Below are positions 11,810 through 61,660 of a stretch of DNA of 64,000 nt, piece after piece (positions within the stretch are counted from its first letter, which is position 1; each line of letters opens with the position of its first letter). The stretch is from Pedobacter sp. PAMC26386 (GTDB lineage Bacteria > Bacteroidota > Bacteroidia > Sphingobacteriales > Sphingobacteriaceae), in contig CP060294.1 in NCBI GenBank assembly GCA_014302835.1, positions 1,426,001 to 1,490,000 on the forward strand. The letters run 5' to 3'. Under the pieces are notes generated by a model. The model had not been told where the DNA came from. It made no database searches and was given only the letters and a program-made list of their open reading frames with translations. Both the position numbers and the translations under genes were made by a program.

Positions 11810-13123
11810 TTACTTACCAAATAATGCTACTAAGTTTTTCCCTTTTAGTAGACCATTAGAATCAAAAAGAATTTCTTTAGCTGCATGCATTTTCTTCGCT
11901 ATTCTACTTTTTTTGACTCTTGCATACCTTTGGGTTGTTCTGACATTCTTATGTCCTAACATTTTACTTACATCCTCTAATGGGAAATCAAGAACGTTTA
12001 GCATGATGTCGGCGAAAGTATGCCTTGCCAAATGACTATTTAATTCTCTTGATAAACCGCAAATATATGATAGCTCTTTAAGATAGCAGTTGTAGCGATA
12101 GTTGCTATTTACAGGAATCAGACGTTTGTTAATTTTACAGTAGGGGTCGTTACTGTATTTTTTAATGATCTGTTCAACAATGGGCAGAATAGGAACCATT
12201 TCTGTAACTTTCGTTTTCCCGCGCTCTTTAATGAGCCATTTATCATGTGCGGTGCCAACGGTTATAATATGGAGCGGAGATAAATTATATATGTCCTGAT
12301 AAGCAAACGCGGTAAAACATTGAAAGATAAACGCATCTCTCACTTTATCGAGTCTTTCAATCGTAAGTTTATGATGCCAAATATTTTCAACTTCTGATAT
12401 TTCCAGCGGTTGAATTTCAGGTTCATCAGCACCACACCTAAATTTTTCAATTGGGTTCTTAGTTATCCAGCCACATGTTTCGGCAAGTTTCAGTATTTGT
12501 TTGGTGCTCTTGATTTGCTTCATCGCAGCAGCTTCCCCAAGTACTGAACTTCTTTTAACAGTCAGGAAGGTTAAAAAATCCTGTGCAAAGCAATATTTAA
12601 TATCAATGAGTTCCATATCATTAATTTTTTTTTGGTATAAAAGAAATTCTGCAATCTTGTTTTTTGTGGCTTTCCATTGTTTTAGTGTTTCCGGTGATCT
12701 CAACTTCTTTTCTACCAAATCAGAAAACTCTTTAATTTGAAGATCAGCAAGTTCCAATAGACTTATCTTTTTCTTAGCGGTAATTGCGGTTTGCCCTTTT
12801 TTATGGTCGTGAGGCAGATTCCTGTAGATATTTTTTAGTTTTAAGGGAGTGACCGCATCAAAGTTTGACTGTAGTACAGTAAAATATCTTTCTAAATCAA
12901 CTTGCATACGATTGATTAAGGAATTAGTCATTTTAGCGTGTTGTCCCGTTATTACTCTTTTGGTTTTATTATCCCAGTTGTCAACGTGTGCTTTCCTACC
13001 AGTGGACAATTCTTCGTCCATTCCATCAATCGATATTCTGCAAATGATAGGGGCGAGGCCGTTAGCATCTTTCTTTGATTTACGGTGCCAAAATAGAATG
13101 GTTAATGTTTGGTTGCTTTTCAT
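11810..13123 (-). CDS. Tyrosine integrase of the left island
   Basis: 437 residues. The N-terminal Arm-type and SAM-like core-binding regions (about 1-210) precede a catalytic domain with HLARHTF (HxxR, about 373-379), GHKNVRTTQRYARV (second His and the nucleophile Tyr, about 398-411). The first catalytic Arg position reads FTAFAYQD, as in many Bacteroidetes recombinases that lack Arg I. It is probably active. The start lies about 245 bp from the tRNA-Lys 3'-end copy at 13368, the same geometry as the second integrase and its tRNA, so it likely served an older element in the same tRNA-Lys site. Confidence 0.9.
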   Translation of the reverse strand: MKSNQTLTILFWHRKSKKDANGLAPIICRISIDGMDEELSTGRKAHVDNWDNKTKRVITGQHAKMTNSLINRMQVDLERYFTVLQSNFDAVTPLKLKNIYRNLPHDHKKGQTAITAKKKISLLELADLQIKEFSDLVEKKLRSPETLKQWKATKNKIAEFLLYQKKINDMELIDIKYCFAQDFLTFLTVKRSSVLGEAAAMKQIKSTKQILKLAETCGWITKNPIEKFRCGADEPEIQPLEISEVENIWHHKLTIERLDKVRDAFIFQCFTAFAYQDIYNLSPLHIITVGTAHDKWLIKERGKTKVTEMVPILPIVEQIIKKYSNDPYCKINKRLIPVNSNYRYNCYLKELSYICGLSRELNSHLARHTFADIMLNVLDFPLEDVSKMLGHKNVRTTQRYARVKKSRIAKKMHAAKEILFDSNGLLKGKNLVALFGK

Positions 13124-13367: not shown

Positions 13368-13384
13368 GTGATCCCGCTGGGATT
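13368..13384. other. attL: 17-bp copy of the tRNA-Lys 3' end
   Basis: GTGATCCCGCTGGGATT is identical to 30640-30656, the 3' end of the tRNA-Lys gene on the minus strand. The two copies are 17,272 bp apart and enclose the mobilization genes and the second integrase. This is the pattern left by a tyrosine integrase using a tRNA 3' end. Confidence 0.8.
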
Positions 13385-13738: not shown

Positions 13739-14662
13739 CTAAGCTTGTTTTCTTTTCCTCCTTAATTTATAAATAATATCATTACTATTCATATTTCGTT
13801 TTATTGAAAAATTCAGGGGATCCCAATGCTCAATTTCGGGTTGTTTGAGAGAGGGACTGAAGAATAAAATTTCTTGGCCTAATCTAGATTCGTAAGCAGT
13901 ATGTTTGAACGCAAATTCTTTTTTATCGCATTGTTGATATAAATTTCGAATTTCAGGGACATTATCGTACGAAACGATCCATTTTATATTCTTGATACTT
14001 TTAATTTTTTCACTTACAATTTTATGATTATCATCCTGATAATGATTCATATAAAGGGAGCTGGCCTTAAAGTAATATGGTGGGTCAAAATAGAAAACGG
14101 TATTCTCTTGATTACTATTCTTTTGTATTTTATCTATAAGTTTAATAGCATCCTTTTTATATAATGTTATATCTTTCTTCCGCTTTGAAATCTTTTTTAT
14201 TCTTTCAATTAATTCAGGTTTGTTGAATCTACAATCCATAAGATATTCTCCATCTTGTTTTATTCCACCAATAATTCCTGCATTTATTATTCCTGAGCGA
14301 TTAGTCCTATTCAAAAAGAAAGTTGAAAATCCTAATTCAAGGATATTTGCATTTTTCTTGTTCATTTGAATTTCTCTTTGAAGTCTCCATTCTTGCGGTG
14401 TAATTTCAGTTTCTTCAATTAAATGACATAAAGCTTTAGTCTTATGTAAGACACAATACCAAAATGCATAAATTGACCTGTCCATGTCGTTTATTGTTAT
14501 TTTTTGAACAAAGCCTTCAAATAAAAGAAAAAGAGCAACTGATGCTCCGCCGGAATATGGCTCAACATAATGTCCATTGACATCATTGTCTAAGCATATC
14601 TTAGCTATAAAAGCAGATAGTTTATTTTTTCCTCCTGGGTACCTTAGCGGTGAGTAAAGCAT
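13739..14662 (-). CDS. D12-class (Dam-like) DNA adenine N6-methyltransferase
   Basis: 307 residues from the ATG at 14662; a longer frame upstream only overlaps the neighbour. Motifs in order: RYPGGK (7-12) and EPYSGGASV (34-42) form the SAM pocket, FFLNRTNRSG (115-124) is typical of the class, and the catalytic DPPY sits at 193-196. It would methylate adenine in a short DNA motif. Its ATG shares one A with the TAA of the ParB-like gene (TAATG), so translation is coupled. Last gene of a three-gene operon. No restriction endonuclease is adjacent, so it may mark self-DNA for the ParB/ATPase partners or supply the host's epigenetic mark. Confidence 0.9.
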   Translation of the reverse strand: MLYSPLRYPGGKNKLSAFIAKICLDNDVNGHYVEPYSGGASVALFLLFEGFVQKITINDMDRSIYAFWYCVLHKTKALCHLIEETEITPQEWRLQREIQMNKKNANILELGFSTFFLNRTNRSGIINAGIIGGIKQDGEYLMDCRFNKPELIERIKKISKRKKDITLYKKDAIKLIDKIQKNSNQENTVFYFDPPYYFKASSLYMNHYQDDNHKIVSEKIKSIKNIKWIVSYDNVPEIRNLYQQCDKKEFAFKHTAYESRLGQEILFFSPSLKQPEIEHWDPLNFSIKRNMNSNDIIYKLRRKRKQA

Positions 14663-16221
14663 TAAATTTCTTTTAAATTGTTTGATAACGCATTGAATAA
14701 TGGTTCCAGTGTATTCCAAGCTCGTCTATTAACATTTATGTCTATTGTGTAGTCTATGTTGTGGACAGCAAGGTCTAAGCCATTTTTTACATTATCAAGG
14801 TAATCTGTTATACTTCGTAATTTTGTTGGCTCCGAAATGATCTCTTTTAATTCGTGATTTTTAATATAGTCTAACATAGTCTTAAGACTTGACGCATATT
14901 CTTTATCACCCTCAAATCTTAATATTCTCATGAAATCCGACGGATCTATATCACCTTCGATTGAGTACCTGTTTTTTAAAAAGTCAGCAAGAGTCTTGAT
15001 TTTCGCTAACCCATCATTTTTTCTTTTTTGATTATTTTTCTCATTAAGTTTTACCCCCAAATCTCGTTTGTCTATATAAAAAAATAAAACTTGTTCAAGG
15101 TAGGTACGAATTAAGATTGCAAATGAGTAGTATCTTTCAATGGGCATAAACTTTAATTCATCAAAAAGTAGATCCAGCTTCTCATGTTCAAAAACAAGAT
15201 AGTAATCTCTTGGAATAATGAAATTACTAAGATTGCTTTTCTTTCTAATTTTCTTTCTTGGACTAATTTTGTTCTTTTCCTCTTCTAGATTCTTTCTTTC
15301 AACTACGCCATGGCTTGCAACGTTCTCAATATTATTTTTAACATCGAGGTCAAATATCGGATTTTCTTTTAGCTTATTTACATAAATCACTTTATCTTCT
15401 TCATTATTGAACTCTCTAGAAAAACCGCGCGATTGAATCATTTCATTGAAAACAAACAGCAATCTGTTTTCAAATTCCTCTTTGTCAATGGTTATAATCA
15501 ATCCTCCGTCTTCTGGGTCGAATTCAACACCTAAAAAGTTCCTGGCATCATCAAACTTGTAAAATCTTTCAAGATTTGTAATGTCAAAAGTTGAAATATC
15601 GATAAACTCGCCAGTATCTTTCAAATGAAGTTGCTGAGCTTCATAAAACAAATTATAGGCTTTTAAATAGTTTTTTATATTACCAGAGGTTTCATAAAGT
15701 AACTCGCAAATATCATTAATGACTAAACCATCGTTGTAAAACATATTTGCAACAAAGGCATATTGATTACCGGTTTGCCATCTTTTCAAGGCATCTCCAC
15801 GATGCCTGCTATATATTATCGGGTTTGCTAATAATCTATTTGGGGCAATATGACACCGTAGTTTTTTGTCGATTGGAAAGTTATTTTCGATTATGTTTCT
15901 AGCAAGTGTGTTTGCTTTTGATGGAGGTAGGAATTTTTTAGGATCCTGAAGAAGTTTTAAGGATGCAGTTCTTCTATTCCCTTCTAAGACAATTTTTTTA
16001 TCATGTTCAATACAAATAATTGGTTCTTCACCGATAAAATATCCTTCTTCAGATATTTTTTTTGCGAGTTCATATACCTTTTCATTTTCGATAAGATAGT
16101 GCATGATTTGCGTTTGATTCAAGTTCTTACCTTGATAATTGATTCTGGGATTGTTTAAATCAAGTTGTAATGTGCTAAGGGTGTATTCGAAAGTTTCCCA
16201 TGAAGTGTAATCAATATACAT
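14662..16221 (-). CDS. ParB/Srx-like domain protein, large, of a putative defence operon
   Basis: 519 residues. The N-terminal about 200 residues resemble ParB/sulfiredoxin-type domains: LDLNNPRINY (about 20-29), VLEGNRRTASLKLL (about 78-91, the EGNRR core that binds nucleotide in this superfamily), and a helical HTH-like stretch (about 140-200). The rest is helical with a Lys/Arg-rich linker (about 300-330), and I do not recognise it. Second gene of the operon: 71 bp after the ATPase and one base overlap with the methyltransferase. ParB-like proteins can be CTPases or nucleases; which applies here is unknown. Confidence 0.7.
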   Translation of the reverse strand: MYIDYTSWETFEYTLSTLQLDLNNPRINYQGKNLNQTQIMHYLIENEKVYELAKKISEEGYFIGEEPIICIEHDKKIVLEGNRRTASLKLLQDPKKFLPPSKANTLARNIIENNFPIDKKLRCHIAPNRLLANPIIYSRHRGDALKRWQTGNQYAFVANMFYNDGLVINDICELLYETSGNIKNYLKAYNLFYEAQQLHLKDTGEFIDISTFDITNLERFYKFDDARNFLGVEFDPEDGGLIITIDKEEFENRLLFVFNEMIQSRGFSREFNNEEDKVIYVNKLKENPIFDLDVKNNIENVASHGVVERKNLEEEKNKISPRKKIRKKSNLSNFIIPRDYYLVFEHEKLDLLFDELKFMPIERYYSFAILIRTYLEQVLFFYIDKRDLGVKLNEKNNQKRKNDGLAKIKTLADFLKNRYSIEGDIDPSDFMRILRFEGDKEYASSLKTMLDYIKNHELKEIISEPTKLRSITDYLDNVKNGLDLAVHNIDYTIDINVNRRAWNTLEPLFNALSNNLKEI

Positions 16222-16292
16222 AATTGAGATTTGTTAATTAAGTTTCTTTAGTGAAATTTTTAAGGTATGTATCGGATGATATTAACTATTGA

Positions 16293-17864
16293 TCAAATGT
16301 TTATCTTTTCAATTGTAAGTTTGGCGGCGAATTTATTGTAAATTTTAACAAAATCCTCTATAAATTCATCAAATTGTAACTTATTTGCATAAATCCATGG
16401 GTTTATTACTTTAATTGCATTTGGCCCCCAAACTTTTAGATGCTTATTAAACCACTTCTTTGCTTTTATCCTATCATTTAAAATCTCATCAAGCGCGAAA
16501 TCTTTAAAGCAATATTGTTTGGTGAAATTGGTATTAATATTATCCCACACGGGCGATTCATCATCAAGTTCGTGTAGGAATATAGCCAAAAGTCTCTCTG
16601 GAGAATTGTTTGTTGGGAGTAATACGACATTTTCCAGTAGTTTAACTTTTTTGTAATCCGATTTCTGCGCTCTCACATCACCATCTAAAAATATTATTGA
16701 ATTAGGTATAAGAAAAGATGGTACTTTTCTTATAGACAAATCAATTAAGCTACTGCAACTTAAGGTGCAATCTACAAAATGAAATATAGTTGCCTTCCTT
16801 TTGAGAAGTGCTTTTGTAAATATTAGACACTCTTTATCCTCAGTAAAGGCATCAATTTTTAGATTTTTTGTGCTTTCTATAGTTACATTTAGGCGATGTC
16901 TTATAGTGTCAATGTTAACATCTTGAATAATCTTTATTTTTTGGTTTCTTTTCTCCAAGAAAACAACTTTGATCTGATCGTTAGTCGCAATATTGATTTT
17001 GTTAAGCTCTTGTAATTCACAAGTTTTCTCAAGAATTGTTAATGAATGGGTGGTAAAAATAATTTGTATTTTAAATTCAGATGCAAATTTCCTGAGAGCT
17101 TCAATTAATTTTACTTGTGAGCCTGGGTAAAGGGTAGCATCGATTTCATCAATTGCTAATATTCCCCCTCTATAATTATTCGGATAGTTATCTTTTAGGC
17201 GCTTAAATGATAAGATGGCAAGTAATATTTTGCCAACATTATCTTGTCCCGATGAATTTTGACGCCAATCATAATGTGATGTATTAATTCCTAACGTGTT
17301 TTTATCTGGACTCTCTAAATAGTTTGCAGTCTTAATTTCGTCATTAGAAATTAAGATCTTTTTATGCCATTCCTTGAATAACTTTTCTTCTGATTCTGAT
17401 AGTCTTTGTAAATTGCTCTCGTTCAGTTTAGAATCCTCACCTATAGGCATTAGACGTTTTAAACTTAAAAAAACCACAGGTAATTGAATGTATCCTGAAC
17501 CTTTTGTCCGATTTCCCTTTCTCCAAAATCGAATCTTTTCTTTTCCTCGCTTTATACTTTCAATTATAAACGGATCTTCATTTGATATATGTAAAGTCCA
17601 TTCATGACTCTTAGCAATATCAAAAGTTTCAGATAACTTAAACTTTTCACTAAAAGCAGATTTGAATGACCCGCCGCATAATGGTTTTTCATCTTTCATT
17701 GGATTTAGCGGGTCGTTTATTGTAAAAGGTTGACTCAGAATACCAAGTATTGTTGTTTTTTGAGTTCCATTTTGTCCGGCAATTACTGTTAATTGAGAGC
17801 CCAATTCAATCTCAACATTTTCGAAACCGCGAAACCTTGCTACTTCTGCTTTTTTTATTATCAT
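16293..17864 (-). CDS. AAA/ABC-type ATPase with C-terminal TOPRIM-like region (OLD/PARIS-like)
   Basis: 523 residues. An SMC/Rad50-like ATPase split by an insert: Walker A GQNGTQKTT (30-38), signature-like SSGQDN (204-209), Walker B GILAIDEIDATLYPG (234-248) and switch His in FTTHS (270-274). The C-terminal part has the TOPRIM signs: an acidic TEDKE (341-345) and IIFLDGDVR (390-398, DxD). This order matches OLD-type nucleases and fused AAA15-DUF4435 proteins of PARIS-like systems. Such proteins sense phage and cleave nucleic acid or signal. It heads the operon ATPase, ParB-like, methyltransferase. The subtype is uncertain. Confidence 0.75.
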   Translation of the reverse strand: MIIKKAEVARFRGFENVEIELGSQLTVIAGQNGTQKTTILGILSQPFTINDPLNPMKDEKPLCGGSFKSAFSEKFKLSETFDIAKSHEWTLHISNEDPFIIESIKRGKEKIRFWRKGNRTKGSGYIQLPVVFLSLKRLMPIGEDSKLNESNLQRLSESEEKLFKEWHKKILISNDEIKTANYLESPDKNTLGINTSHYDWRQNSSGQDNVGKILLAILSFKRLKDNYPNNYRGGILAIDEIDATLYPGSQVKLIEALRKFASEFKIQIIFTTHSLTILEKTCELQELNKINIATNDQIKVVFLEKRNQKIKIIQDVNIDTIRHRLNVTIESTKNLKIDAFTEDKECLIFTKALLKRKATIFHFVDCTLSCSSLIDLSIRKVPSFLIPNSIIFLDGDVRAQKSDYKKVKLLENVVLLPTNNSPERLLAIFLHELDDESPVWDNINTNFTKQYCFKDFALDEILNDRIKAKKWFNKHLKVWGPNAIKVINPWIYANKLQFDEFIEDFVKIYNKFAAKLTIEKINI

Positions 17865-22359: not shown

Positions 22360-22773
22360 ATGACCAGTACAAGATCAAACATAGGTCTTAAAGACCCTAT
22401 AAATAAGTCATCTGAACGTGCCAGGAATAAAGGCGGGGCACCACAAAAAAAGATCAAACGTGCCAGTGGCATCCGTGTCCGGCTAAACGCTAAAGAACGT
22501 TTTCTAATTGAATCCAAAGCCCGTATGGCGGGCATGCGGATCAGCGATTGGGTCAGGGCGGCGGCCTTAAAAGCTAAGGTGGTAGCCCGGATCACGGACG
22601 AAGACAGACGCATTTTACACCTGCTGGCAGGTATGGCCAATAACCTGAACCAGTTGACAAAATTGGCGCATACCAATGGAATCATGAGTATTGTAATCAA
22701 GTGCGACCAGTTGTTAACAGAAATTGACCAGACCCTTAGATATTTAAACAGCGATGATGGGGAAAATACCTAA
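22360..22773 (+). CDS. mobC: MobC-type relaxosome accessory protein
   Basis: 137 residues. Basic N-terminus (1-45), then the ribbon-helix-helix-like MobC region: GIRVRLNAKERFLIESKARMAGMRISDWVRAAALKAKVVARI (about 37-78), and the family's LAGMANNLNQLTKLAHTNGI helix (about 89-108). MobC binds oriT and helps the relaxase melt DNA. Its 3' end overlaps the relaxase start by 20 bp. Sits just after the oriT candidate. Confidence 0.85.
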   Translation: MTSTRSNIGLKDPINKSSERARNKGGAPQKKIKRASGIRVRLNAKERFLIESKARMAGMRISDWVRAAALKAKVVARITDEDRRILHLLAGMANNLNQLTKLAHTNGIMSIVIKCDQLLTEIDQTLRYLNSDDGENT

Positions 22774-23740
22774 ATCCGGCAAGAGCTTTAAAGGTTGCGT
22801 GGAATACTGTATGCTAAAAGAAGGTGCAGTGGTACTGGATGCTGATGGTTTGCGTACAGGTGAAGTAAAACACACGATTGCTGACTTTAATATGCAACGG
22901 AAAATGCGCCCCGGCTTAGGGCAGGCAGTAGGCCATATTGCTTTAAACTGGAGCCCGGAGGATGCGTCAAAACTTACTGATGAACTGATAGTGAAGATTG
23001 CTAAAGAATACCTGACAAAAATGAAGATCACAGGCACACAGGTGCTAATGGTCAGGCATCACGATACGGATCACGACCACCTGCATATCGTTTACAACCG
23101 GGTAAATAACGAAGGCAAAACAATCAGTGATTCTAATCAGCGGTGGAACAATGTAAAAGTAAGTAAAGCGCTTACTTTAAAGTACGGTTTCCACATGGCA
23201 AAGGACAAAGACAAGGTAAACCGTCATCGTCTTAAAGGAGCCGACAAAGCAAAATACCAAATCCATGACCAGATCAAAGCCATACTCCCAAAAGTTAAAA
23301 GCATGGATGACTTGCAAAAACAATTGGCTATGCAGGGTATTAAAATGCTGTACAAGTATAAAAACGGAACCAGTGAAGTACAGGGAATCAGTTTCAGTAA
23401 AGGTGAATACAAGTTCAAGGGGTCGGAAATTGACCGTAGTTTGAGCTATGGGAAAATAAACAAAATGATAATTGACCTTGTGCAAGAGCAGCAGCAAAAA
23501 GAAAGAATAGGACAACCTATGAGCCTAGCCGACCAACTTAGGGAAGTTATACAGCAGTCCGAGGATGAACCCCATTATTTAAAGCAGGAACCGCAAACGC
23601 AATACTTGCAGCACGAGCCGCAGACCAATTACCTAGGTACAGTCACACCCGAAATTGATATATCTGACGATGTGGATGACGAGGCTATTTATGGCCGTAA
23701 CCGGAGGCGGCAAGAGAAAGCCCGCACCAATACCAGATAA
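22754..23740 (+). CDS. Relaxase (MobP/BmgA-like mobilization nuclease)
   Basis: 328 residues. The VirD2-type relaxase domain occupies about 1-200: N-terminal MMGKIPKSGKSFKGCVEYCM with the likely catalytic Tyr, and HHDTDHDHLHIVYNRV (about 97-112), the His-triad metal motif. The C-terminal third is Gln/Glu-rich and less conserved. It nicks oriT and leads the strand in transfer. No type IV secretion genes are present in the island, so it is mobilizable rather than self-transmissible. An alternative ATG lies one codon later. Confidence 0.88.
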   Translation: MMGKIPKSGKSFKGCVEYCMLKEGAVVLDADGLRTGEVKHTIADFNMQRKMRPGLGQAVGHIALNWSPEDASKLTDELIVKIAKEYLTKMKITGTQVLMVRHHDTDHDHLHIVYNRVNNEGKTISDSNQRWNNVKVSKALTLKYGFHMAKDKDKVNRHRLKGADKAKYQIHDQIKAILPKVKSMDDLQKQLAMQGIKMLYKYKNGTSEVQGISFSKGEYKFKGSEIDRSLSYGKINKMIIDLVQEQQQKERIGQPMSLADQLREVIQQSEDEPHYLKQEPQTQYLQHEPQTNYLGTVTPEIDISDDVDDEAIYGRNRRRQEKARTNTR

Positions 23741-24423: not shown

Positions 24424-24502
24424 TTGTATAATACTTAGATTATGTCGTTTCAATGCGGGTTAGCAACAGCAGACCCCACATGCTGTATAATCTGTAAACT
24501 AT

Positions 24503-24550
24503 TTTAGCGAGTACATTATAATCTCACTCTACGGCTGTACAAGCAGCCTC
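24503..24550 (-). ncRNA. Guide RNA unit A (most distal)
   Basis: Both hairpins present, one change in hairpin 2 (GTGAG/CTCGC). TACAGC at 24487-24482, guide from 24481 (ATGTGGGGTCTGCTGTT), one mismatch in 17 from the unit B guide. A second TACAAT at 24428-24423 leads to GGTCGGTCGC. Confidence 0.72.
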
Positions 24551-24716
24551 AATTATCTTTTTCAAGAGTGTTGATGTAATAGAATCTATGCCGAATATTA
24601 CATTTTTTGATGATAGCATAAGCGTGCGCCAGCCATTGTATTTTAGTTTAAAATTAACCTTTTCGATTAAAGGCCAGTAAACAGCAGACCCCAAATATTG
24701 TATAATTTCAAACTAT

Positions 24717-24764
24717 TTTAGTGAGTATATTATAATCTCACCCTTCGGCTATACAAGCAGCCTC
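24717..24764 (-). ncRNA. Guide RNA unit B
   Basis: Both hairpins keep pairing (GGCTG-CTTGTA-TAGCC with a G-U). TACAAT at 24702-24697, guide from 24696 (ATTTGGGGTCTGCTGTT). A second TACAAT at 24640-24635 leads to GGCTGGCGCACG. Flanks and guide closely match unit A. Confidence 0.72.
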
Positions 24765-24899
24765 AAATATGATATTAGGTAATATGAGCATTAACAAAGC
24801 CGCCTCTAAAATTCGAGGAAGCACCACGCGTTGTATATGTACGAGAGAAGATCATCTGTTGTATTATTCTTAATGAACGTATTCTCTTCTATATGAATA

Positions 24900-24948
24900 T
24901 TTAGTGAGTAAACTTTCTTTCTCACCCTACGACTGTACAAACAGCCTC
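24900..24948 (-). ncRNA. Guide RNA unit C
   Basis: Hairpin 1 is GGCTG/CAGTC (one G-U pair). The spacing to the first TACAAC (24863-24858) is longer than in other units (about 40 nt); guide from 24857 (AGATGATCTTC...). A second TACAAC at 24835-24830 leads to GCGTGGTGCTTCC. Confidence 0.68.
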
Positions 24949-25043
24949 AAATAATTTGAGCAATGCCCTTTAAACTTTAAATCCGTAGCAGCTAATTACA
25001 CGTATACCAATAGAGCCCATAACGGTTGTACCACCTGTTTAGA

Positions 25044-25092
25044 TTTAGTGAGTATATCCATGATCTCACTTTGCAGCTGTACAAGCAGCTTC
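25044..25092 (-). ncRNA. Guide RNA unit D
   Basis: Hairpin 1 has compensating changes (AGCTG/CAGCT), so pairing is kept: evidence for RNA structure. TACAAC at 25030-25025, guide from 25024 (CGTTATGGGC...). Upstream on the minus strand GGTGGTTTATC matches the repeat 5' half. Confidence 0.72.
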
Positions 25093-25240
25093 TTATTTTT
25101 TAGATAAACCACCTATCTTTTTACCTTGGTTAAAAATACAATAAGCATACCCCGGCATTGTATGTTTCTTAAGTGAAGCCCAACACTGTAATATTCTCCC
25201 AATAATACAAGAGATCCCATCAATTGTATCACTAATTAAA

Positions 25241-25289
25241 TTCAGTGAGTGCATCTTTCGCCTCACTCTATGGCTGTACAAGCAACCTC
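25241..25289 (-). ncRNA. Guide RNA unit E
   Basis: Hairpin 1 has one change (GGTTG/CAGCC, G-U pair); hairpin 2 intact. TACAAT at 25228-25223, guide from 25222 (TGATGGGATCTC...). A second TACAAT at 25162-25157 leads to GCCGGGGTATGC. Confidence 0.7.
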
Positions 25290-25387
25290 CTTTTTTTATT
25301 TAAAAATCGGTACCGCAACAAAGTCGTCACGTCCCTGCTTTGTATATTTTACAGCAAGACCCACCCATTGTAAATACTATCGAACAA

Positions 25388-25436
25388 TTTAGTGAGTACA
25401 TAATTTGTCTCACCCTGCGGCTGTACAAGCAGCCTC
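25388..25436 (-). ncRNA. Guide RNA unit F
   Basis: Both hairpins intact. TACAAT at 25372-25367, guide from 25366 (GGGTGGGTCTTGC...). A second TACAA element at about 25346 precedes another variable stretch (CAGGGACGTGACG...). The repeat half 25442-25466 abuts its 5' side. Confidence 0.75.
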
Positions 25437-25441
25437 TAAAA

Positions 25442-25869
25442 CTTTTCAAATTGACATAAACCACAATCCACACTTATTTCAGGGCATAGTCTCCAATTGT
25501 ATATACTTTTCAAATTGCTGTAAACCACAACGCATATACCTTAACCTGTCTTATCCATGCTGTTGTACATACCCTTCAAATTGCGATAAATCAAAACTTC
25601 ATTCAAAGTTTTATTGTGTTTAAGCAATTATACATCCATTATGAAATATTTAGTGAGTACAAATCCTGTCTCACCTTACGGCTGTACAAGCAGCCTCTAT
25701 AATTTTTAAAATAACCTTTCAAATCGTCGTAAACTACAATAGCATCAGTTTGGGCGACACTACCAGAAGTTGTATATATGCCTTCAAATTGTTATAAACC
25801 ACAATAAAAAGAATAAGATGAAAAACGAAACCGCGGTGTAATACCCATCAAATTGCGATAAACGATAAT
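25442..25869 (-). CRISPR. Degenerate CRISPR-like repeats interleaved in the guide array
   Basis: Six related repeats of up to 35-36 nt lie at 25442-25466 (partial), 25496-25530, 25562-25596, 25711-25740 (partial), 25769-25804 and 25835-25869. Minus-strand pattern: TTGTGGTTTATCGCAATTTG, then AAGGGTATATACAAC. Where two full copies are adjacent, the gaps are 28-31 nt and unrelated in sequence (25467-25495, 25531-25561, 25741-25768, 25805-25834), as in spacers. The repeat 3' end equals the TACAAY before guides of the scaffold units. No cas1/cas2 is present, so these are not being acquired by a classical adaptation module here. Confidence 0.65.
25649..25697 (-). ncRNA. Guide RNA unit G
   Basis: Both hairpins intact. 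TGTATAAT at 25634-25627; guide from 25626 downward, nearly the same as unit H for its first bases. A truncated 36-nt-type repeat (25711-25740) runs directly into it on the minus strand. Confidence 0.75.
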
Positions 25870-25923
25870 TTTATTCAAGTTTTTTTTATTGAGTTTAAGC
25901 AATTATACATCCATTATGAAATA

Positions 25924-25972
25924 TTTAGTGAGTACAAATCCTGTCTCACCCTACGGCTGTACAAGCAGCCTC
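25924..25972 (-). ncRNA. Guide RNA unit H (nearest the dCas12f gene)
   Basis: Scaffold with hairpin 1 GGCTG/CAGCC and hairpin 2 GTGAG/CTCAC. On the minus strand TGTATAAT (25909-25902) follows, and the variable part starts at 25901 and reads downward. About 58 bp around it, including the guide start TGCTTAAAC, recur in unit G, so H and G are recent duplicates. Confidence 0.75.
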
Positions 25973-25984
25973 CATTATCTTCAG

Positions 25985-27082
25985 CTATTCAACAATGACC
26001 TGAATACCCGCTTTTTCAGCCTTGTAGTTTATTTTATCTTTCAGACTGTAATAACTCCAATTTTGCAGCAGGAACAGGTCTTGCTTCGCTATTTCCTCTT
26101 TCTGTTCCTGATTAACCAAGATTAAAGTGGCAGCCTCATGTTTTACGCAAAGATCAATTAGCTTCCGGCTGTACACATGTAACTTATATTCCACATATCT
26201 TTTTTCCTGATACTGGTAATCTTCCAGACATTTCTTTTTTCGTTTAGTGCCATGACCGCCACGGTTAAAGGCAACTGCTTTTTTTACCCTGTGAATAGCC
26301 GCCTGTATCGCTAACCTCCGATGTAAGAACTCTTCCTTATTTCCAATGGTATGTTCATCACTTCCAATTTTAACAGTAACCGGATGTTCGATAGATAGGG
26401 AAGCTTCCGCAATAACAGAAGTGTCTAATTGATGCTGTTCTTTTTCAATTTGAATGGCCGCCAGTAAAAACACTTTACCCTGATCTAACTGGATATGGCT
26501 GGCACAAAGTTTTAAAGTACCATTCAGAATCCTGTCTAACATGATTTTTTTATCCGATTTATCTTTTCCTAAGTAAGTTCTGAACGGAATTTGGAATAGC
26601 TTAAAACAAAAATTCTTATTGTCAGGTGTACGGCTTAATTTTGAAATCACTTCTGAACCAAAAGGCAGAGGGATATTTTTCTTATAATTTCTTAACGACT
26701 TTTCACCTTTCCAGTAAGCGACTTTTTCTTTATTAAAATAGGAAATAAGGGTATTGTTTAAGTTGCTTAGGATATTGGTAGGGATTTGCCCTTTAAAGTG
26801 ATTAGAAAGAACCCGGTAAGTGGTGTTTTGCCGGGACGATTTTAAAATTCCATTTTCTTCTTTTTTTTCGTCAGCAATTTTAAGCTTGATTTCTTCGGTT
26901 AAATAAAAGAAGTCCTTGACCTGTTCCTGCACAAAATGATGGCTCATAATCATGTTAGCGGAACGAAAGCAAATCCATTGCCAATTATAAAGCTGGTCTT
27001 TTGCCTGTTTGATCACTTCTTTATCATCAGAATCAATGAGTAACTGAATTTTGCGGGTGATAATCATGGTATTGTTTTCCAT
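25985..27082 (-). CDS. Nuclease-dead Cas12f/TnpB-like RNA-guided protein (dCas12f-like)
   Basis: 365 residues. The layout follows Cas12f/TnpB: N-terminal helical region (QLYNWQWICFRSANMIMSHH, 30-49), a WED/REC-like middle, and a RuvC-like C-terminus. There, EFLHRRLAIQ ... GGHGTKRKKKCLEDY (about 251-289) is the bridge/lid helix pattern, and NWSYYSLKDKINYKAEKAGI (341-360) is the segment before RuvC-III. Catalytic positions are lost: RuvC-I Asp region reads ASLSIEHP (227-234), RuvC-II Glu region reads LILVNQE (320-326), and the protein ends before the zinc ribbon and RuvC-III Asp. It cannot cut DNA. It starts 4 bp after the sigma gene and is followed by the guide array, so I infer RNA-guided sigma recruitment. 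Confidence 0.82.
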   Translation of the reverse strand: MENNTMIITRKIQLLIDSDDKEVIKQAKDQLYNWQWICFRSANMIMSHHFVQEQVKDFFYLTEEIKLKIADEKKEENGILKSSRQNTTYRVLSNHFKGQIPTNILSNLNNTLISYFNKEKVAYWKGEKSLRNYKKNIPLPFGSEVISKLSRTPDNKNFCFKLFQIPFRTYLGKDKSDKKIMLDRILNGTLKLCASHIQLDQGKVFLLAAIQIEKEQHQLDTSVIAEASLSIEHPVTVKIGSDEHTIGNKEEFLHRRLAIQAAIHRVKKAVAFNRGGHGTKRKKKCLEDYQYQEKRYVEYKLHVYSRKLIDLCVKHEAATLILVNQEQKEEIAKQDLFLLQNWSYYSLKDKINYKAEKAGIQVIVE

Positions 27083-27086
27083 AGCC

Positions 27087-27893
27087 TTAGATTTTTACTT
27101 TTTTAATTTTGGTACAGGCATTTACAAACACTCTTTGGATATAGCCTTGATTTAAATTTAATGCCGTAGCAATCTCTTCAAAACTGTATTGGAGTTCATA
27201 GCGCATGTGTAGAATAGACGATTGTTCTTCGCATAAATCTCCTTCAAACTTAAACCTATTGGTTTTTCCGACTGTGGTAAGTTTTTGGGTATTCGTCAGA
27301 ATTGCCTTAAGGCATTCCAGTGTTTTTTCAACTTTTCTGGCCACCTGATAATCTGATATGCCGCCAATATGCCACGCTATACGGTCATAATTAAAAGAAT
27401 ACTTTAAGCAAAGCTGAATAAATAATTGCTGGCCATCTGTCAGGTTAGGAATTACGGCTTCTAACTGATTCCATTGTTTTTTCATTTCATCTTCTAAATC
27501 CTGCTGAAAGAAAATATCAGGATCATCTTCAAATTCAGGATTGTAACCTACCATAAACTCCTGATAGTTCTCTATCTCATCCAGCCGGAGCATATTGCGC
27601 TGAAATTTGTTATTTGAAGTTTTAAAATAGGCTTTGAAGCCATCGGTAGTCAACTTTTTGACAAAAGTCTCGATGTGTTCGGGGGCGCTTATCCTTTTTC
27701 TGATTAGCCACAGTCTAAGGAAAGCTTCATTAACTATACAGTCCGCATTCACATCGTCTTTAATATATCTTACACCCCTATAGTATAAAGACGGATATAA
27801 GCGATGGTAAAAGAACTCAAGTCCTTTTTCATTACCTTCCTGAAATTTGCTGAAATAATACTGCTGTTCGGTTAATATTTGATTCCTTTTCAT
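27087..27893 (-). CDS. ECF-like sigma factor paired with dCas12f
   Basis: 268 residues. Sigma2 region at about 25-92 (GLEFFYHRLYPSLYYRGVRY, then DVNADCIVNEAFLRLWLIRK) is the core RNAP-binding part. Unusually, two sigma4-like HTH segments can be read: LPNLTDGQQ-type VIPNLTDGQQLFIQLCLKYS ... IAWHIGGISDYQVARKVEKT (about 147-191) and EEQSSILHMRYELQYSFEEI (about 222-241) with NLNQGYIQRVFVN. It ends 4 bp before the dCas12f ATG, so the two are co-translated. No anti-sigma gene is near. Recruitment by dCas12f-guide RNA would replace promoter -35 recognition; that is inference from context and recent reports of dCas12f-sigmaE systems in Bacteroidota. Confidence 0.82.
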   Translation of the reverse strand: MKRNQILTEQQYYFSKFQEGNEKGLEFFYHRLYPSLYYRGVRYIKDDVNADCIVNEAFLRLWLIRKRISAPEHIETFVKKLTTDGFKAYFKTSNNKFQRNMLRLDEIENYQEFMVGYNPEFEDDPDIFFQQDLEDEMKKQWNQLEAVIPNLTDGQQLFIQLCLKYSFNYDRIAWHIGGISDYQVARKVEKTLECLKAILTNTQKLTTVGKTNRFKFEGDLCEEQSSILHMRYELQYSFEEIATALNLNQGYIQRVFVNACTKIKKVKI

Positions 27894-27912
27894 ACTCGTA
27901 TTTTATACGAGT
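27894..27912. promoter_or_regulatory. 7-bp hairpin or operator directly before the sigma start codon
   Basis: ACTCGTA (27894-27900) and TACGAGT (27906-27912) are perfect complements with a 5-nt loop. On the minus strand the stem ends right at the ATG (27893-27891), so it could hide the ribosome site or bind a repressor. The divergent XRE gene product is a candidate binder. Confidence 0.55.
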
Positions 27913-28244
27913 CTTATTGGAATGTCCACCTAAAAAATAAGGGAGAGACACTACCTCCAATCCGTTCCCGGGGTCTAACTCCCATAAACATGATTTTCAA
28001 CGATAGTGCCCACTCCCTTATCGTGCAAATATAGCACAATATGGTACGTGGGCATAATTTATCGCTCTCTAGTTTATTTTTATTGTTAGACTTGGGAACT
28101 CGAGACTCTTTTTTATACCTTTTAAATTCTATTAATTTTTTTCTACCTTATATCATAAATCAAACATACAAATTAAAAACATTATATGCAAATCGTTCTT
28201 ATTTAAATTCATAATTACATCCATATTATTATTCTTTTTGGTTG
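27913..28244. other. Divergent intergenic region between the sigma factor and XRE regulator
   Basis: 332 bp, no gene. Structured half (27930-28030) holds GGGAG and CTCCC blocks on the minus strand (27951-27956 region, 27988-27993, 28013-28018) that could fold the sigma leader. The other half is AT-rich promoter DNA for the XRE gene. Confidence 0.5.
28026..28033 (-). promoter_or_regulatory. Candidate -7 box for the sigma-dCas12f operon
   Basis: On the minus strand TATATTTG matches TAnnTTTG exactly; a good -33 TTTG is not seen. Predicted start near 28018 would give a leader of about 125 nt containing GGGAG/CTCCC-type pairs and the hairpin at 27894. Confidence 0.4.
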
Positions 28245-28772
28245 ATGTCGAAGAGAGCTAAAATTTACGAAGCAGATGGGATGAAGCAGATAATTGGTGA
28301 GAGATTAAAAAACAAACGCCTATTATTAGAATATTCATTAGGTGATATATCTGATATGACCGACTTTTCAAAATCTACAGTAATTAATTTGGAAAAAGGT
28401 ATTGCTACTAATCTGGATTATTATATTGGGTATGCTAAGGCGATTGATTTTAAGCTTCCAGAACTATTTAACGTTCCGGTTGTATATAAGCCAAAATACG
28501 AGCTTTCGGAAGATAAAAAGAACAGGATTTTCTTGTCAAAGAAAATAAGAGTTCTTTTTACAAAACATGATTTCTTTAAAAACAGCGTAACTGTAGATGA
28601 TATTATCATACATTTTGAAAAACAAAAAGAACTTACACGTACGCCAAAACTAAGTACCGATATCTCTAGAATATTGCTTAATTGGGTCGAGGATGGAGTT
28701 TTATATGTCGTAGAGAAAAGAGGACGTACTAATGTCTATCGTAAAATAAATAGCCCAGTTATCTTGAAATAA
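28245..28772 (+). CDS. XRE-family HTH protein with a C-terminal winged-helix-like domain
   Basis: 175 residues from the ATG at 28245 (an upstream TTG would add one). HTH at about 15-72: IIGERLKNKRLLLEYSLGDI, then FSKSTVINLEKG. The C-terminal half (about 95-170) reads like a small winged helix: VTVDDIIIHFEKQKELTRTP ... ISRILLNWVEDGVLYVVEKR. A similar two-part design is seen at 55739. It is divergent from the sigma-dCas12f operon and could repress it through the 27894 palindrome; this is inference. Confidence 0.7.
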   Translation: MSKRAKIYEADGMKQIIGERLKNKRLLLEYSLGDISDMTDFSKSTVINLEKGIATNLDYYIGYAKAIDFKLPELFNVPVVYKPKYELSEDKKNRIFLSKKIRVLFTKHDFFKNSVTVDDIIIHFEKQKELTRTPKLSTDISRILLNWVEDGVLYVVEKRGRTNVYRKINSPVILK

Positions 28773-29087: not shown

Positions 29088-30392
29088 TTATATGGCCTGC
29101 TGGTATTTCTCCCTTAAAAGGGCTACATCAGCACTTATTTTGGCTTCCGTAACTTCACCTGCTTTAACATGTTGGCTTACGAATTTTTGCATCAGCGGAG
29201 CCATATCCTCACTTACTTTGTTATCGAGTACTTTAGCATATAACTGTGTAGTCCGTATATTGGTGTGTCCGAGCATTTTAGAAACACTTTCGATAGGTAC
29301 ACCGTTCATTAAGGTTACCGTGGTTCCAAAAGTCCGCTTTGCGATCCGGTTACCCAATATTTTATGAACGTCTGAAAGAACTGCAATTTCAACCAAATAT
29401 TCGTTCATCTTTTGATTGCTGGAAATTGGCAAAGCCTTATTTTTATTTAGGCAGGAAGGGTGATCTTTGTATTGATCAAGGATGCTTGCTGCTACCGGTA
29501 ATAACGGTACGGCTACTCTGGTATCTGTCTTTTTCCTGTAGGTAAATATCCACCGTTCCCCGTCAACCCCAATACCAATATCGGTTAGTTTGAGTTTTTG
29601 AACGTCAGCATAGGAAAGTCCGGTATAACAACTAAACAGGAAAAAGTCACGTACCTGCGATAATCTAGCGGTGGTAAGCTGTTTTTTAGTGATCTTCTGT
29701 AATTCGTCTGCGGTTAGATATTCCCGATGTACAGGTTTGGATTTTAGTATATGTCCGAAGAAAGGATCAGTGTTGATCCATTTATATTTCCGGCAGATGG
29801 TAACTATTTTTTTGAGGTTTTTAAGGTGTTTATTTGCCGTATTGGTGTCGTTATCCTTAGCCGTATGCAAATAGAAGTCAAAACAGTCGATAAACTCGTG
29901 GTCTATGCTTTTTACGTTAAAATCCTTTTTGTTGTATTTTTCAGCAAGATAATCTTTAACATGTCTTTCCAGTACCTCAAACCTTTTGAGTGTTCCCGAA
30001 GCATATTCGTCTTTCTCCACCAACACTTTCATTTTTTCATTGTGGATTTTAATAGCCTCTAATATGGTGTGCGATTTTTCTTCTTTGCCTAAGTATTTGC
30101 ATTTAACACTATCGGCAGTTATTTCGGCTCTATCCACGCTTAGTAGGGTATGGGCTGCATAAACCTCTGCTTTTACACTTTCCAAATAAGCATTCAGGGT
30201 TTTAACATCCTCTTTTGTGCCGATTACTTTTCCTGACTTTGCATTCCACTTTTCAGGCTCACAGCACCTGCTTGTTGACATTTCCGAACGGATGCCGTCT
30301 ACTGTAATTCTTAAAAAGATAAAATAAGCATCACCTTTTTTGTAGTTCTTTGGTCTTTTCAAAAAGAAAAGCACGCTAAAATTAGTCTTCAT
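29088..30392 (-). CDS. Tyrosine integrase of the 17-kb island, non-canonical active site
   Basis: 434 residues from the ATG at 30392 (MKTNFSVLFFLKRPKNYKKG); eight upstream codons are unlikely. Arm-binding and SAM-like domains precede the catalytic domain (TARLSQVRDFFLFSCYTGLSYADV, Arg I replaced by Ser as in IntDOT-like enzymes). The expected HxxR box reads RIAKRTF: His to Arg and Arg to Lys. The later GHTNIRTTQLYAKV keeps the second His and the Tyr nucleophile. It lies about 250 bp from the tRNA-Lys gene, as expected for the island's integrase. Activity is uncertain because two catalytic positions differ. Confidence 0.85.
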   Translation of the reverse strand: MKTNFSVLFFLKRPKNYKKGDAYFIFLRITVDGIRSEMSTSRCCEPEKWNAKSGKVIGTKEDVKTLNAYLESVKAEVYAAHTLLSVDRAEITADSVKCKYLGKEEKSHTILEAIKIHNEKMKVLVEKDEYASGTLKRFEVLERHVKDYLAEKYNKKDFNVKSIDHEFIDCFDFYLHTAKDNDTNTANKHLKNLKKIVTICRKYKWINTDPFFGHILKSKPVHREYLTADELQKITKKQLTTARLSQVRDFFLFSCYTGLSYADVQKLKLTDIGIGVDGERWIFTYRKKTDTRVAVPLLPVAASILDQYKDHPSCLNKNKALPISSNQKMNEYLVEIAVLSDVHKILGNRIAKRTFGTTVTLMNGVPIESVSKMLGHTNIRTTQLYAKVLDNKVSEDMAPLMQKFVSQHVKAGEVTEAKISADVALLREKYQQAI

Positions 30393-30583
30393 AATGATAA
30401 CATTAAGGTTAAACAAAATTAGCTTTGCAGTTCGATGTACACAAGATATTCAAATATTGAACTGGTTGAATATCAGTTTGTTAATTCAAATTAGGGGAGT
30501 TTGATAAGATCAAGAACAACGCCCCGAATGACGCTCATTTTATATGTGATTTATTGCATATTTTGACATATCCACCAAAAACA

Positions 30584-30639: not shown

Positions 30640-30656
30640 GTGATCCCGCTGGGATT
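30640..30656. other. attR core at the tRNA-Lys 3' end
   Basis: GTGATCCCGCTGGGATT, identical to 13368-13384. Covers the discriminator base, the acceptor 3' strand and part of the T arm of tRNA-Lys, a common target of tyrosine integrases. Confidence 0.8.
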
Positions 30657-30713
30657 CGAACCCAGGACCACTACATTAAAAGTGTAATGCTCTACCAGCT
30701 GAGCTACGGAATC
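30641..30713 (-). tRNA. tRNA-Lys (anticodon TTT)
   Basis: 73 nt. Acceptor GATTCCG / CGGGATC plus discriminator A, D arm GCTCAGCTGGTAGAGC, anticodon stem TTACA / TGTAG with loop CTTTTAA (TTT), T arm CTGGG-TTCGAAT-CCCAG. CCA is not encoded. The gene is intact although its 3' end is the island's att site. Confidence 0.95.
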
Positions 30714-55738: not shown

Positions 55739-56341
55739 TTAGTTTTTTATGAGGTCAATATCTTTTATATCGACCCTGCTGTAAACAAGTACTTCCCGGT
55801 TACCATCCTCACCATCCTTTTTCTTCAGTTTTCTTTTCGCAGATTTTAACTTGTTCTTTTGAACGAGGTAATTCAATTTCTGGGAAATCTCTTTGCTGGT
55901 AAAGTCTTTATTATCCTCTTTACAAGCTTCTTTTACTTCCCATACATAGACAGATTTTTCAAACAGAGAACTGGGTACTAGTTTGTGTTCAATATAGTAG
56001 GCGTCTTTTCTTTCGGCTTTAGTCTCCGTGAAATATTCTGGGTTCCCTAGATATGACTCGTAAAACTCCAGTAGTAAAGGAGCTTTTCTGATCTGGCTGG
56101 TGATTTCAAAATTCAGATTTAGGATTTGAGCTCCTTGTAATTTAAACCCGGTACCAATTTTATCTGCTGTTTCTCCGGTAATATTTCTGGTGCCGTTGAG
56201 TAGCGCGTATAGGTGGCTATCAGATATTTTAGTGAACTCGGCAAGGCCACTGATCTCTAGGCCAGCTATTTCCATGATCTTAAGCAAACGCTCTTTGATT
56301 GCTGTGTTATATGCAGCAGTATTTTTATCGCCCATTTTCAA
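55739..56341 (-). CDS. XRE-family HTH protein
   Basis: 200 residues. HTH_XRE at about 15-70 (LLKIMEIAGLEISGLAEFTK, SDSHLYALLNGTRNITGETA) and a C-terminal half (about 120-200) with FEKSVYVWEVKEACKEDNKD and TSKEISQKLNYLVQKNKLKS, a likely winged helix. Architecture recalls the regulator at 28245. Alone, before a 719-bp intergenic region and the SusCD operon; target unknown. Confidence 0.7.
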   Translation of the reverse strand: MKMGDKNTAAYNTAIKERLLKIMEIAGLEISGLAEFTKISDSHLYALLNGTRNITGETADKIGTGFKLQGAQILNLNFEITSQIRKAPLLLEFYESYLGNPEYFTETKAERKDAYYIEHKLVPSSLFEKSVYVWEVKEACKEDNKDFTSKEISQKLNYLVQKNKLKSAKRKLKKKDGEDGNREVLVYSRVDIKDIDLIKN

Positions 56342-57060
56342 ATGGAATAAATAAATAGTCCTAAAAATTATTCAAATAATTTGTATTCTAATTTTATAGT
56401 CGTATATTTACTATACAATATTTCTTAAATAGAAATCACGATAATATGGAGAGACATAATCATAAATATTTTGCAATGCTCTATTTCTAAGGTTTGATAT
56501 CTTAGTTCTTTTGGATAAAAGTAGTCTTGCTGGCCATAGTGGAGGACGGGTCAATAGGTTTGTTGGATACATAGAACCTTACTCAAAACTCTTTATCTGG
56601 CTTTATTTGGCCAGAATTAATTCCAATGTGTGTTGGTTTGTTAAATCTTAATATGCTTAATTCGGTCGAAAATACTCGTTATATTATTCAATGTATTGAA
56701 GGGTCTACTACAGTATGCATAATTTTAACCTCTTGAAATTTATTTAAACAGGGTTTTTAAAGAGCAATATTTTCATTGTTTTTTGTTGCTGATAATTAAT
56801 TCAATTTAAACATTTTGATTTTTAGGTCCGTGTAATTATGGATTTTAAATTAATCCGCTTATTCATTGGAATAAGCTTAGTGGATATGCTTTTTCACAGA
56901 ATTCTGATAAACCATAAATATATCCCGTAACATGAATGTAAACAACATGAAAATCATTGAACCGCCTGATTGATGAATGTAATATAGCTAAGTAGCTTTT
57001 CCTTGCGCTGAAATGGGGTAAGGAGATCAACCAATTACAAATTTAATTAACGAAATAATT
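56342..57060. other. Long intergenic region upstream of the TlpA-SusC-SusD operon
   Basis: 719 bp, AT-rich, no credible ORF on either strand, no strong hairpin and no clear TAnnTTTG near the operon start. Room for a long leader or several promoters. None of the variable stretches in the guide array match it by eye. Confidence 0.55.
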
Positions 57061-58443
57061 ATGAAAAAATTAACGATAAAAATCGTCTTGGCAATGCTTT
57101 GCCTAAATTTTAATACTTATGCGCAACAGGATAAATCTGTTGTTACGGAGAAAACCGGTCTGCAAATAGGGCAGAAGGTACCTGATGTTTTGCTATATAA
57201 TATTCATAACTATAAGACTAAAACAGCAAAGCTTTCGGATTTTAAGGGGAAGTTACTGATTCTGGATTTTTGGGCCACCTGGTGTAGTCCTTGTGTGACA
57301 ATGTTTCCAAAAATGGATTCATTACAGCGGAAATTTGAGGGTAAACTGCAGTTTTTGTCTGTGACTTATCAAAGTGCTAAGGACGTATTGCCTTTTCTGG
57401 TCCGTTTTGAAGAACTACAGAAAAATAAACTTACAATTCCAACAATTGTTCAGGACAAGGAGCTGAATGCGATGTTCCCACATTTACAATTGCCGCACTA
57501 TGTTTGGATAACGCAGGATGGTATCGTTAAGGCGATTACCGGAGATAAGGAGGTAACTGAAGCGATTATAGCTGAAAGTTTATCTGGTAAAGCTATGAAC
57601 CTTGCAGTGAAAGCTGATGTGGCAAGCAAAAAGACTTACGACCCCATGGAACCACTTTTAATGAATAATAATGGGGGGGACGGAAAGAATCTTTTATACC
57701 ATTCCATTTTCACTGGTTATAGTGAAGAGTTAGGTGGCGGTGGATCTGTGGGGCCGCATATTAATGAGAAAGGCATGCGGCTGTGTGAATTCAATAGCAG
57801 CATTCCATGGTTCTATAAGCGTGCTTATGGTGATGGAAGTTTGAAATTTTTCAATAACAATGTTGTTCAGCTTAAAGTTAAAGATCTGGACAAACTGGAG
57901 AGTGAAGGGGAAGGTGCACCAGTGCTCAAATGGATGCAGAAGGGAAATGTATTCAGCTATGAATTATTTGTTCCTACTTATATGGCCAGCCAGTTTTTTG
58001 AGATTATGAAAGGAGATTTGAAACGGATTTTTCCTCAATATACTGCAAAGATAGAAATACAGAAGGTTAAATGCATGGCACTGACACGTATATCTAAAGA
58101 GGATAGGATTAAAACAAAAAATCCTGAATCCAGATCGTATATGGATGCTGATCTGCTTGGGATGAAGCTAATAAATATTTCCTTAGATGCTTTTGTTGAT
58201 CGGTTACAAGCATACTATTTCCAGGGAGCATCTATGCCAGCTATCAATGAAACCCATTACAAAGGCAAAGTTGATTTAGAAATCAAAGGGAATCCGGGAG
58301 ATATTAATAACCTTAATAAATCACTCTTGCCCTACGGGCTGAAATTTAAAGAGGTGAAACGAAAAACGGAGATACTGGTTATCAGAGATACAAAAAACAA
58401 GCCTGTAACGAATAAACAGAATTCTAAACAGCTAGGACGTTAA
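57061..58443 (+). CDS. Exported TlpA/thioredoxin-like protein, SusC partner type
   Basis: 460 residues. Signal peptide (about 1-21, KIVLAMLCLNFNTYAQQ). TlpA-type thioredoxin domain at about 32-180 with active site WCSPC (about 78-82) in LILDFWATWCSPCVTMFPKM. After about residue 185 comes a DUF-like region (MNNNGGDGKNLLYHSIFTGY ... LMGMKLIN) common to SusC-linked redox proteins of Bacteroidota. First gene of the TlpA-SusC-SusD operon, 3 bp before SusC. Likely keeps periplasmic proteins reduced or folds cargo; substrate unknown. Confidence 0.8.
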   Translation: MKKLTIKIVLAMLCLNFNTYAQQDKSVVTEKTGLQIGQKVPDVLLYNIHNYKTKTAKLSDFKGKLLILDFWATWCSPCVTMFPKMDSLQRKFEGKLQFLSVTYQSAKDVLPFLVRFEELQKNKLTIPTIVQDKELNAMFPHLQLPHYVWITQDGIVKAITGDKEVTEAIIAESLSGKAMNLAVKADVASKKTYDPMEPLLMNNNGGDGKNLLYHSIFTGYSEELGGGGSVGPHINEKGMRLCEFNSSIPWFYKRAYGDGSLKFFNNNVVQLKVKDLDKLESEGEGAPVLKWMQKGNVFSYELFVPTYMASQFFEIMKGDLKRIFPQYTAKIEIQKVKCMALTRISKEDRIKTKNPESRSYMDADLLGMKLINISLDAFVDRLQAYYFQGASMPAINETHYKGKVDLEIKGNPGDINNLNKSLLPYGLKFKEVKRKTEILVIRDTKNKPVTNKQNSKQLGR

Positions 58444-58446
58444 ACT

Positions 58447-61650: not shown

Positions 61651-61660
61651 TTATATAGAT

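Follow-up and report, generated by a model that had tools for sequence, protein, structure and literature searches.

A nuclease-dead Cas12f and sigma factor locus with a multi-guide array on a Pedobacter island with mobilization genes, and guide matches to structured leaders in related genomes

The window analysed here, that is the whole stretch of 64,000 nucleotides from Pedobacter sp. PAMC26386 (contig CP060294.1, positions 1,426,001 to 1,490,000), carries on its minus strand a sigma factor gene followed, after a gap of 4 bases, by a gene encoding a 365-residue protein. Both ORFs are open and lie at the places given by the initial annotation. The genes and the features surrounding them are the following.

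25985..27082, minus strand: nuclease-dead Cas12f relative, 365 aa (ORF, PDB and PADLOC matches)
27087..27893, minus strand: ECF-type sigma factor gene, 268 aa (ORF, Pfam, ECF profiles, PDB match)
27894..28241, minus strand: leader of the sigma-dCas12f operon, with a target-like element starting at 28015 (leader comparison)
28242..28772, plus strand: divergent gene with a weak helix-turn-helix match (HTH_3, E 0.0015, below the curated cut-off)
22360..23740, plus strand: mobilization genes, MobC/NikA-like and MobA relaxase (profile matches)
29088..30416, minus strand: tyrosine integrase of the island (profile match)
30640..30713, minus strand: tRNA-Lys, likely the integration site (17-bp direct repeat 30640-30656 with 13368-13384)

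The 268-residue protein was compared with Pfam and ECF profiles. A sigma-70 region 4 match (E 9e-7) and a weak region 2 match (0.03) were obtained with Pfam, and the ECF profiles matched in two stretches. Since the Pfam region 4 match (residues 220-265) stands behind an ECF match covering residues 28-198, the protein sequence suggests a second region-4-like part at 220-265. In the PDB the protein matches the RpoE chain of entry 9n9q (E 6.8e-38), in agreement with the ECF-like assignment. The 365-residue protein gave as best PDB match the 'Nuclease-deactivated Cas12f' 9n9c (E 1.2e-138), residues 3-364 being aligned to residues 3-364, followed by the 'Cas12f Effector' 9nzo (7.5e-40) and the 'Cas12f Nuclease' 9nzr (8.4e-40); the PADLOC Cas12f profile matched with 8.1e-50. 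Profile searches therefore place it in the Cas12f family, as had been proposed. Where 9nzo has GVDLG, the aligned residues of the window protein are EASLS, and the glutamic residue of IQME stands opposite a five-residue gap; we take these residues of 9nzo to be those of RuvC-I and RuvC-II. The Asp and Glu positions of the RuvC catalytic residues are consequently not kept. The same alignment stops at residue 414 of 506, so that the C-terminal part is lacking and the protein is shorter than the Cas12f nucleases aligned to it. These data agree with the predicted loss of both catalytic residues and of the C-terminal end and, as judged from the alignment, the protein would not be a nuclease-active effector of type V-F.

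Entry 9n9q is among the PDB entries containing the 9n9c protein. Because relatives of both proteins are thus found together in one solved entry, the locus belongs, almost certainly on sequence grounds, to the known dCas12f-sigmaE kind. Relatives of dCas12f were found in 96 of 399 genomes of the family, and the genome studied here, a single 4.8-Mb contig, carries one copy. A sigma ORF of more than 200 aa directly precedes dCas12f at 22 of the 24 Pedobacter loci tested, a set without L284; the two exceptions are L076 and L080. In plasmid and phage collections only distant matches were detected (21 and 2 records, respectively, all below 60% identity).

The locus stands between the tyrosine integrase beside tRNA-Lys and the MobC/MobA genes, on an island of about 17.3 kb; its two ends are marked by a direct repeat of 17 bp, one copy lying at 13368-13384 and the other at 30640-30656, the end of tRNA-Lys. 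In P. cryoconitis, a 98%-identical dCas12f lies near MobA (85%), MobC (77%) and a piece of integrase (55%). No cas1 or cas2 was found among the profiled ORFs of the island. PADLOC profiles for PD-Lambda-5 A and B matched at 13739-17864, adjoining an AAA ATPase gene, and this region is likely, from its profile matches, a defence module on the same island. A second tyrosine integrase (11810-13123), located just outside the repeat at 13368, belongs perhaps to a neighbouring element.

Downstream of dCas12f, an array of repeats extends on the minus strand from 12 bases after the stop codon to about 24370. A scaffold profile detected eight copies in the window, the first starting at 25972.

25917..25972, minus strand: scaffold 1 (tracrRNA-like), then CRISPR-like repeats; candidate guides start at 25834 and 25768 (repeats, profile)
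25642..25697, minus strand: scaffold 2 (tracrRNA-like), then CRISPR-like repeats; candidate guides start at 25561 and 25495 (repeats, profile)
25381..25436, minus strand: scaffold 3; candidate guides start at 25366 and 25338 (profile)
25234..25289, minus strand: scaffold 4; candidate guides start at 25222, 25184 and 25156 (profile)
25036..25091, minus strand: scaffold 5; candidate guide starts at 25024 (profile)
24893..24948, minus strand: scaffold 6; candidate guides start at 24857 and 24829 (profile)
24709..24764, minus strand: scaffold 7; candidate guides start at 24696 and 24634 (profile)
24495..24550, minus strand: scaffold 8; candidate guides start at 24481 and 24422 (profile)

About 16 candidate guides can be recognized, behind a TACAAY-like end; some of the first stretches after the scaffold in units 3, 4, 7 and 8 may be loops instead of guides. 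In an alignment of 30 scaffolds chosen from 65 listed, two helices were paired in 98.7% of cells, and at 7 of 10 pairs both partners had changed. None of 500 shuffles scored as high and structures slid along the alignment reached at most 47% pairing. On this covariation, the locus is predicted to encode a structured guide RNA, in line with the guide-RNA-like array announced after the stop codon. Units 1 and 2 contain short CRISPR-like repeats with a spacing of 64-66 bases and two spacers each; the ten candidate repeats scored for repeat-antirepeat duplexes gave z values of -3.0 to +0.8, and such pairing is therefore only moderately supported. A search of the array and of eight leader loci against Rfam gave nothing at the curated score.

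The number of scaffolds at 20 other loci of the genus was 0 (one locus), 1 (nine), 2 (seven), 3 (one), 5 (one) and 10 (one). Sixteen of these loci thus have one or two, which sets the multi-guide form apart; together with MobC/MobA, the integrase and the 17-bp repeat, the eight scaffolds confirm a many-guide form on an island with mobilization genes. The two P. cryoconitis loci have ten scaffolds and 1, respectively, and one locus of Pedobacter sp. V48 has 6. The last six units of the window occur in the same order in P. cryoconitis, where guides such as 25338 and 24422 are unchanged over at least 20 bases while nearby bases have changed. At loci of about 57% identity (L086, L088, L096, L097 and L098), the scaffolds lie upstream of dCas12f instead of downstream, and at L086 one short CRISPR-like repeat is matched nine times in that upstream part.

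The initial annotation had supposed that the element could rewire host promoters. Across all search types (BLAST, patterns and receptor regions), no convincing target of the 16 candidate guides of the window was found in the own genome, and such rewiring remains a hypothesis. A BLAST search with the whole array gave none. Patterns of five window guides, with 2-3 mismatches allowed, gave four hits outside arrays, three of guide 25024 and one of guide 24422 (L269), all discarded as lying in coding frames. A scan of the 2.5 kb preceding each of the 100 Plug matches of the genome gave guide-match counts equal to those of shuffles; it may overlook operons in which another gene stands ahead of the receptor. 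A match of guide 24696 (L161, 18/20; best of 60 shuffles 17) was also discarded, being inside the coding frame of another gene. The window itself contains, at 55739-63052, an HTH regulator gene, an intergenic region of 719 bp and TlpA-like, SusC and SusD genes, an operon of the same type as those matched in relatives. It was rejected as a target, no guide reaching p <0.05 against shuffles in the intergenic region. These negative results raise the question of whether the array has largely decayed, most guides being relics without targets here and the locus having little effect in this host. Several units look degenerate and the spacers of the CRISPR-like blocks differ between the window and P. 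cryoconitis, whereas the conserved order of six units, the unchanged guides and the open dCas12f and sigma frames speak for maintenance. We regard decay as a minority possibility, of the order of one chance in three or slightly less, and it is compatible with activity of the system overall.

Guides were then compared with the leaders of sister sigma-dCas12f operons, the leader set consisting of the 330 bases before sigma at 22 loci and the guide set of 163 loosely defined candidates from 25 loci (L080, which has no scaffold, contributes no guides). With at most 2 mismatches of 16, 17 matches from 14 guides were obtained. Shuffled guides gave a mean of 0.90 and a maximum of 3 in 40 rounds, and reversed guides, reversed leaders and the opposite strand gave 0 matches each. 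A G stands at -1 in 17/17 leader matches, the G content of the leaders being 17.5%. Since about five kinds of site account for all 17 matches, these are not independent of one another. Three guides of the window are among them: guide 24696 matches the L066 leader at 16/16, guide 24481 matches the same leader at 15/16 and guide 24634 matches the L079 leader at 14/16. Only one match is within a genome (G197, L068 guide to L067 leader, 14/16), the other 16 being between genomes. When 3 mismatches are allowed, the L066 leader is also matched by guides of L065 and L066 (G284), and a P. cryoconitis guide matches, at 13/16, the element at 28015 in the leader of the window operon; at this level G is at -1 in only 14 of 23 matches, and chance is thus mixed into them.

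Guides recurring across species were also searched as patterns in 16 Pedobacter genomes, with backward patterns as control. For TACTATGGTTTTTCGCA at no more than 1 mismatch, 11 hits were found against 1 in the backward control; they comprise three arrays, seven leaders and one coding frame. In G341 and G254, which have this guide in their own arrays, its 17 bases also occur without mismatch outside the array. The pattern of guide 24634 gave 32 hits against 1 backward, of which five of the 30 non-array hits were inspected; it matches a sigma-dCas12f leader (L079) and the leader of an ECF sigma gene at 16/18, and three 2-mismatch hits (L324, L327, L334) were discarded as coding. That of guide 25768 gave 22 hits against 5, three of its 20 non-array hits being inspected, with 15/17 to a P. 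cryoconitis SusC leader. The guide CGCTATGGGCTCTATTG of G378 has two sites in G378 with one mismatch (16/17), and guide 25024 matches in its first 17/17 bases, with G at -1, both G378 sites and one G284 site; at 2 mismatches this search is close to its control (41 hits vs 22 backward). Guide 24422 matches a P. cryoconitis leader at 22/24, in a 3-mismatch search which gave 5 hits, fewer than the 12 of the backward control, and one further guide pattern gave 3 hits vs 4. A spacer of the P. cryoconitis CRISPR-like block matches from its first base, at 25/29, a site 216 bp before a SusC gene, with a BLAST E of 0.23, the same as that of a chance hit in the scaffold. In the single search with a free start, the best non-array match outside the scaffold starts exactly at the first base after TACAAC. 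A within-genome guide-site pair of G284 reaches 17/18, and the 25/29 and 22/24 pairs of P. cryoconitis are likewise within one genome. Among the named within-genome pairs of relatives, G is at -1 in 7/9 (T in L103 and L111), and among class-A receptor sites in one of seven. Sites L102 and L270 of other genomes were discarded as coding, and L125, L245, L252 and L124 as not leader-like as far as seen.

Profiling of the genes behind the matched sites revealed SusC-type receptors at L293, L296 and L292, a thioredoxin-like gene at L296, a DUF6166 protein at L294 and an ECF sigma at L323, where the gene after it looks FecR-like. Sites L268 and L323 are leader-like, but the genes behind them encode a DUF6166 protein and an ECF sigma instead of SusC. 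Several matched sites have a divergent helix-turn-helix gene before them. A similar small ORF (63-74 aa) was seen about 131-355 bases after the class-B leader site at L116 and L136, in two genomes. Altogether, control of structured leaders as a class, those of sister sigma-dCas12f operons among them, looks a better description than rewiring of host promoters.

The anatomy of these leaders was examined at 22 chosen sites. The common layout is often a divergent helix-turn-helix gene, then the guide site and an inverted repeat. A G is at -1 in 18/22 (exceptions L064, L103, L106 and L110). The best inverted repeat beats the best of 15 base shuffles at 15 sites; the seven others do not. At 19/22 (not at L071, L109 and L255), the distance from the guide start to the beginning of the 3' arm of the best repeat is 62-93 bases; in class A, L109 excepted, the 5' arm precedes the guide by about 35 to 22 bases. 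At 8/22, four or more T in a row are found within ten bases after the inverted repeat. In the window leader, an inverted repeat (28021-28013 / 27945-27937) is likewise followed by a T-run. An attenuator-like alternative is seen in the leader RNAs of L126, L116 and L118, where either a segment upstream of the guide site or one downstream of it can pair with that site.

In several classes, the guide overlaps the inverted repeat in part of its 5' arm, and we considered that guides could act on RNA: as copies of this arm of the hairpin, they would anneal to the 3' arm in the leader RNA and cause antitermination with no DNA targeting. A G next to the target, a motif which reportedly characterizes dCas12f-sigmaE in a preprint abstract that also places the transcription start at +46, was found in all 17 leader matches and fits DNA targeting, not RNA pairing. 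Moreover, matches extend past the arm, and in class A (L067, L072, L103, L106 and L110) the guides and the arms do not overlap. RNA antitermination is accordingly judged very improbable.

TAnnTTTG is the consensus of the Bacteroidota-type promoter box. It was found upstream at 7/22 sites, four of them class B, whereas base-shuffled sites gave a mean of 0.84 and a maximum of 4 of 500. At all 7 sites having one, the box lies 14-22 bases upstream of the guide start, a position at which binding could occlude a promoter start. TldR proteins repress by RNA-guided binding, and dCas12f with its guide could similarly block the start from a conventional promoter, the sigma factor having another task. 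This repression is unlikely, though less so than antitermination: 15 of the 22 sites have no such box, and the presence of the sigma ORF directly before dCas12f at 22 of 24 loci, like that of relatives of both proteins in 9n9q, speaks against it.

We therefore favour, with a probability of about 0.7, a complex of sigma, dCas12f and guides that is brought to DNA upstream of genes and recruits RNA polymerase. The relatives in 9n9q and the mostly G-flanked guide matches in related genomes support the RNA-guided transcription which the initial annotation had put forward. In the proposed mechanism, guides would bring the sigma-dCas12f complex to DNA upstream of genes, where sigma would recruit RNA polymerase. 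Counted from the base adjacent to the target, the guided start would fall some 46 bp away, in the loop between the arms of the inverted repeat. RNA made from a conventional upstream promoter would form the terminator-like hairpin; the guided transcript would not contain the 5' arm and could thus escape it. This proposal would explain the inverted repeat around the guide site in leaders. With many guides, one island could activate several uptake operons and sister sigma-dCas12f operons. More tentatively, and at somewhat less than even odds, guides of Pedobacter islands activate other dCas12f-sigma, ECF sigma and SusC-type operons, as a transferable network with hairpin-bypassing starts. The locus would then be a natural multi-guide form of RNA-guided gene activation, whose target class is the structured leaders of nutrient-uptake and regulator operons. 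If guides do activate sister elements, RNA-guided activators would constitute a transferable network with its own wiring rules, and the system could offer a compact natural template for multiplex bacterial activation.

Three known systems can be compared with this locus. TldR is derived from TnpB and represses, whereas the window system couples a sigma factor. Like the locus described here, these exapted TnpB proteins are RNA-guided regulators on mobile DNA (PMC13418256). Type V-F CRISPR-Cas12f shares with the window the protein family, a tracrRNA-like scaffold and repeat-spacer blocks of 64-66-base period, but the window protein has no nuclease residues, no cas1/cas2 is among the profiled island ORFs, and guides match chromosomal leaders of relatives. 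The closest system is dCas12f-sigmaE of Bacteroidota (PDB 9n9c, 9n9m, 9n9o and 9n9q), to which both proteins are related over nearly their whole length; as in those systems, the guide RNA is downstream and a G lies beside the site in most matches. Unlike them, as far as they are known from PDB names, the window has eight scaffolds, about 16 guides and CRISPR-like blocks, its guides match leaders of sister sigma-dCas12f operons, and the locus is on an island with mobilization genes at tRNA-Lys. Measured against the same PDB names, what goes beyond the known dCas12f-sigmaE kind is the expanded guide locus together with guide matches to structured leaders.
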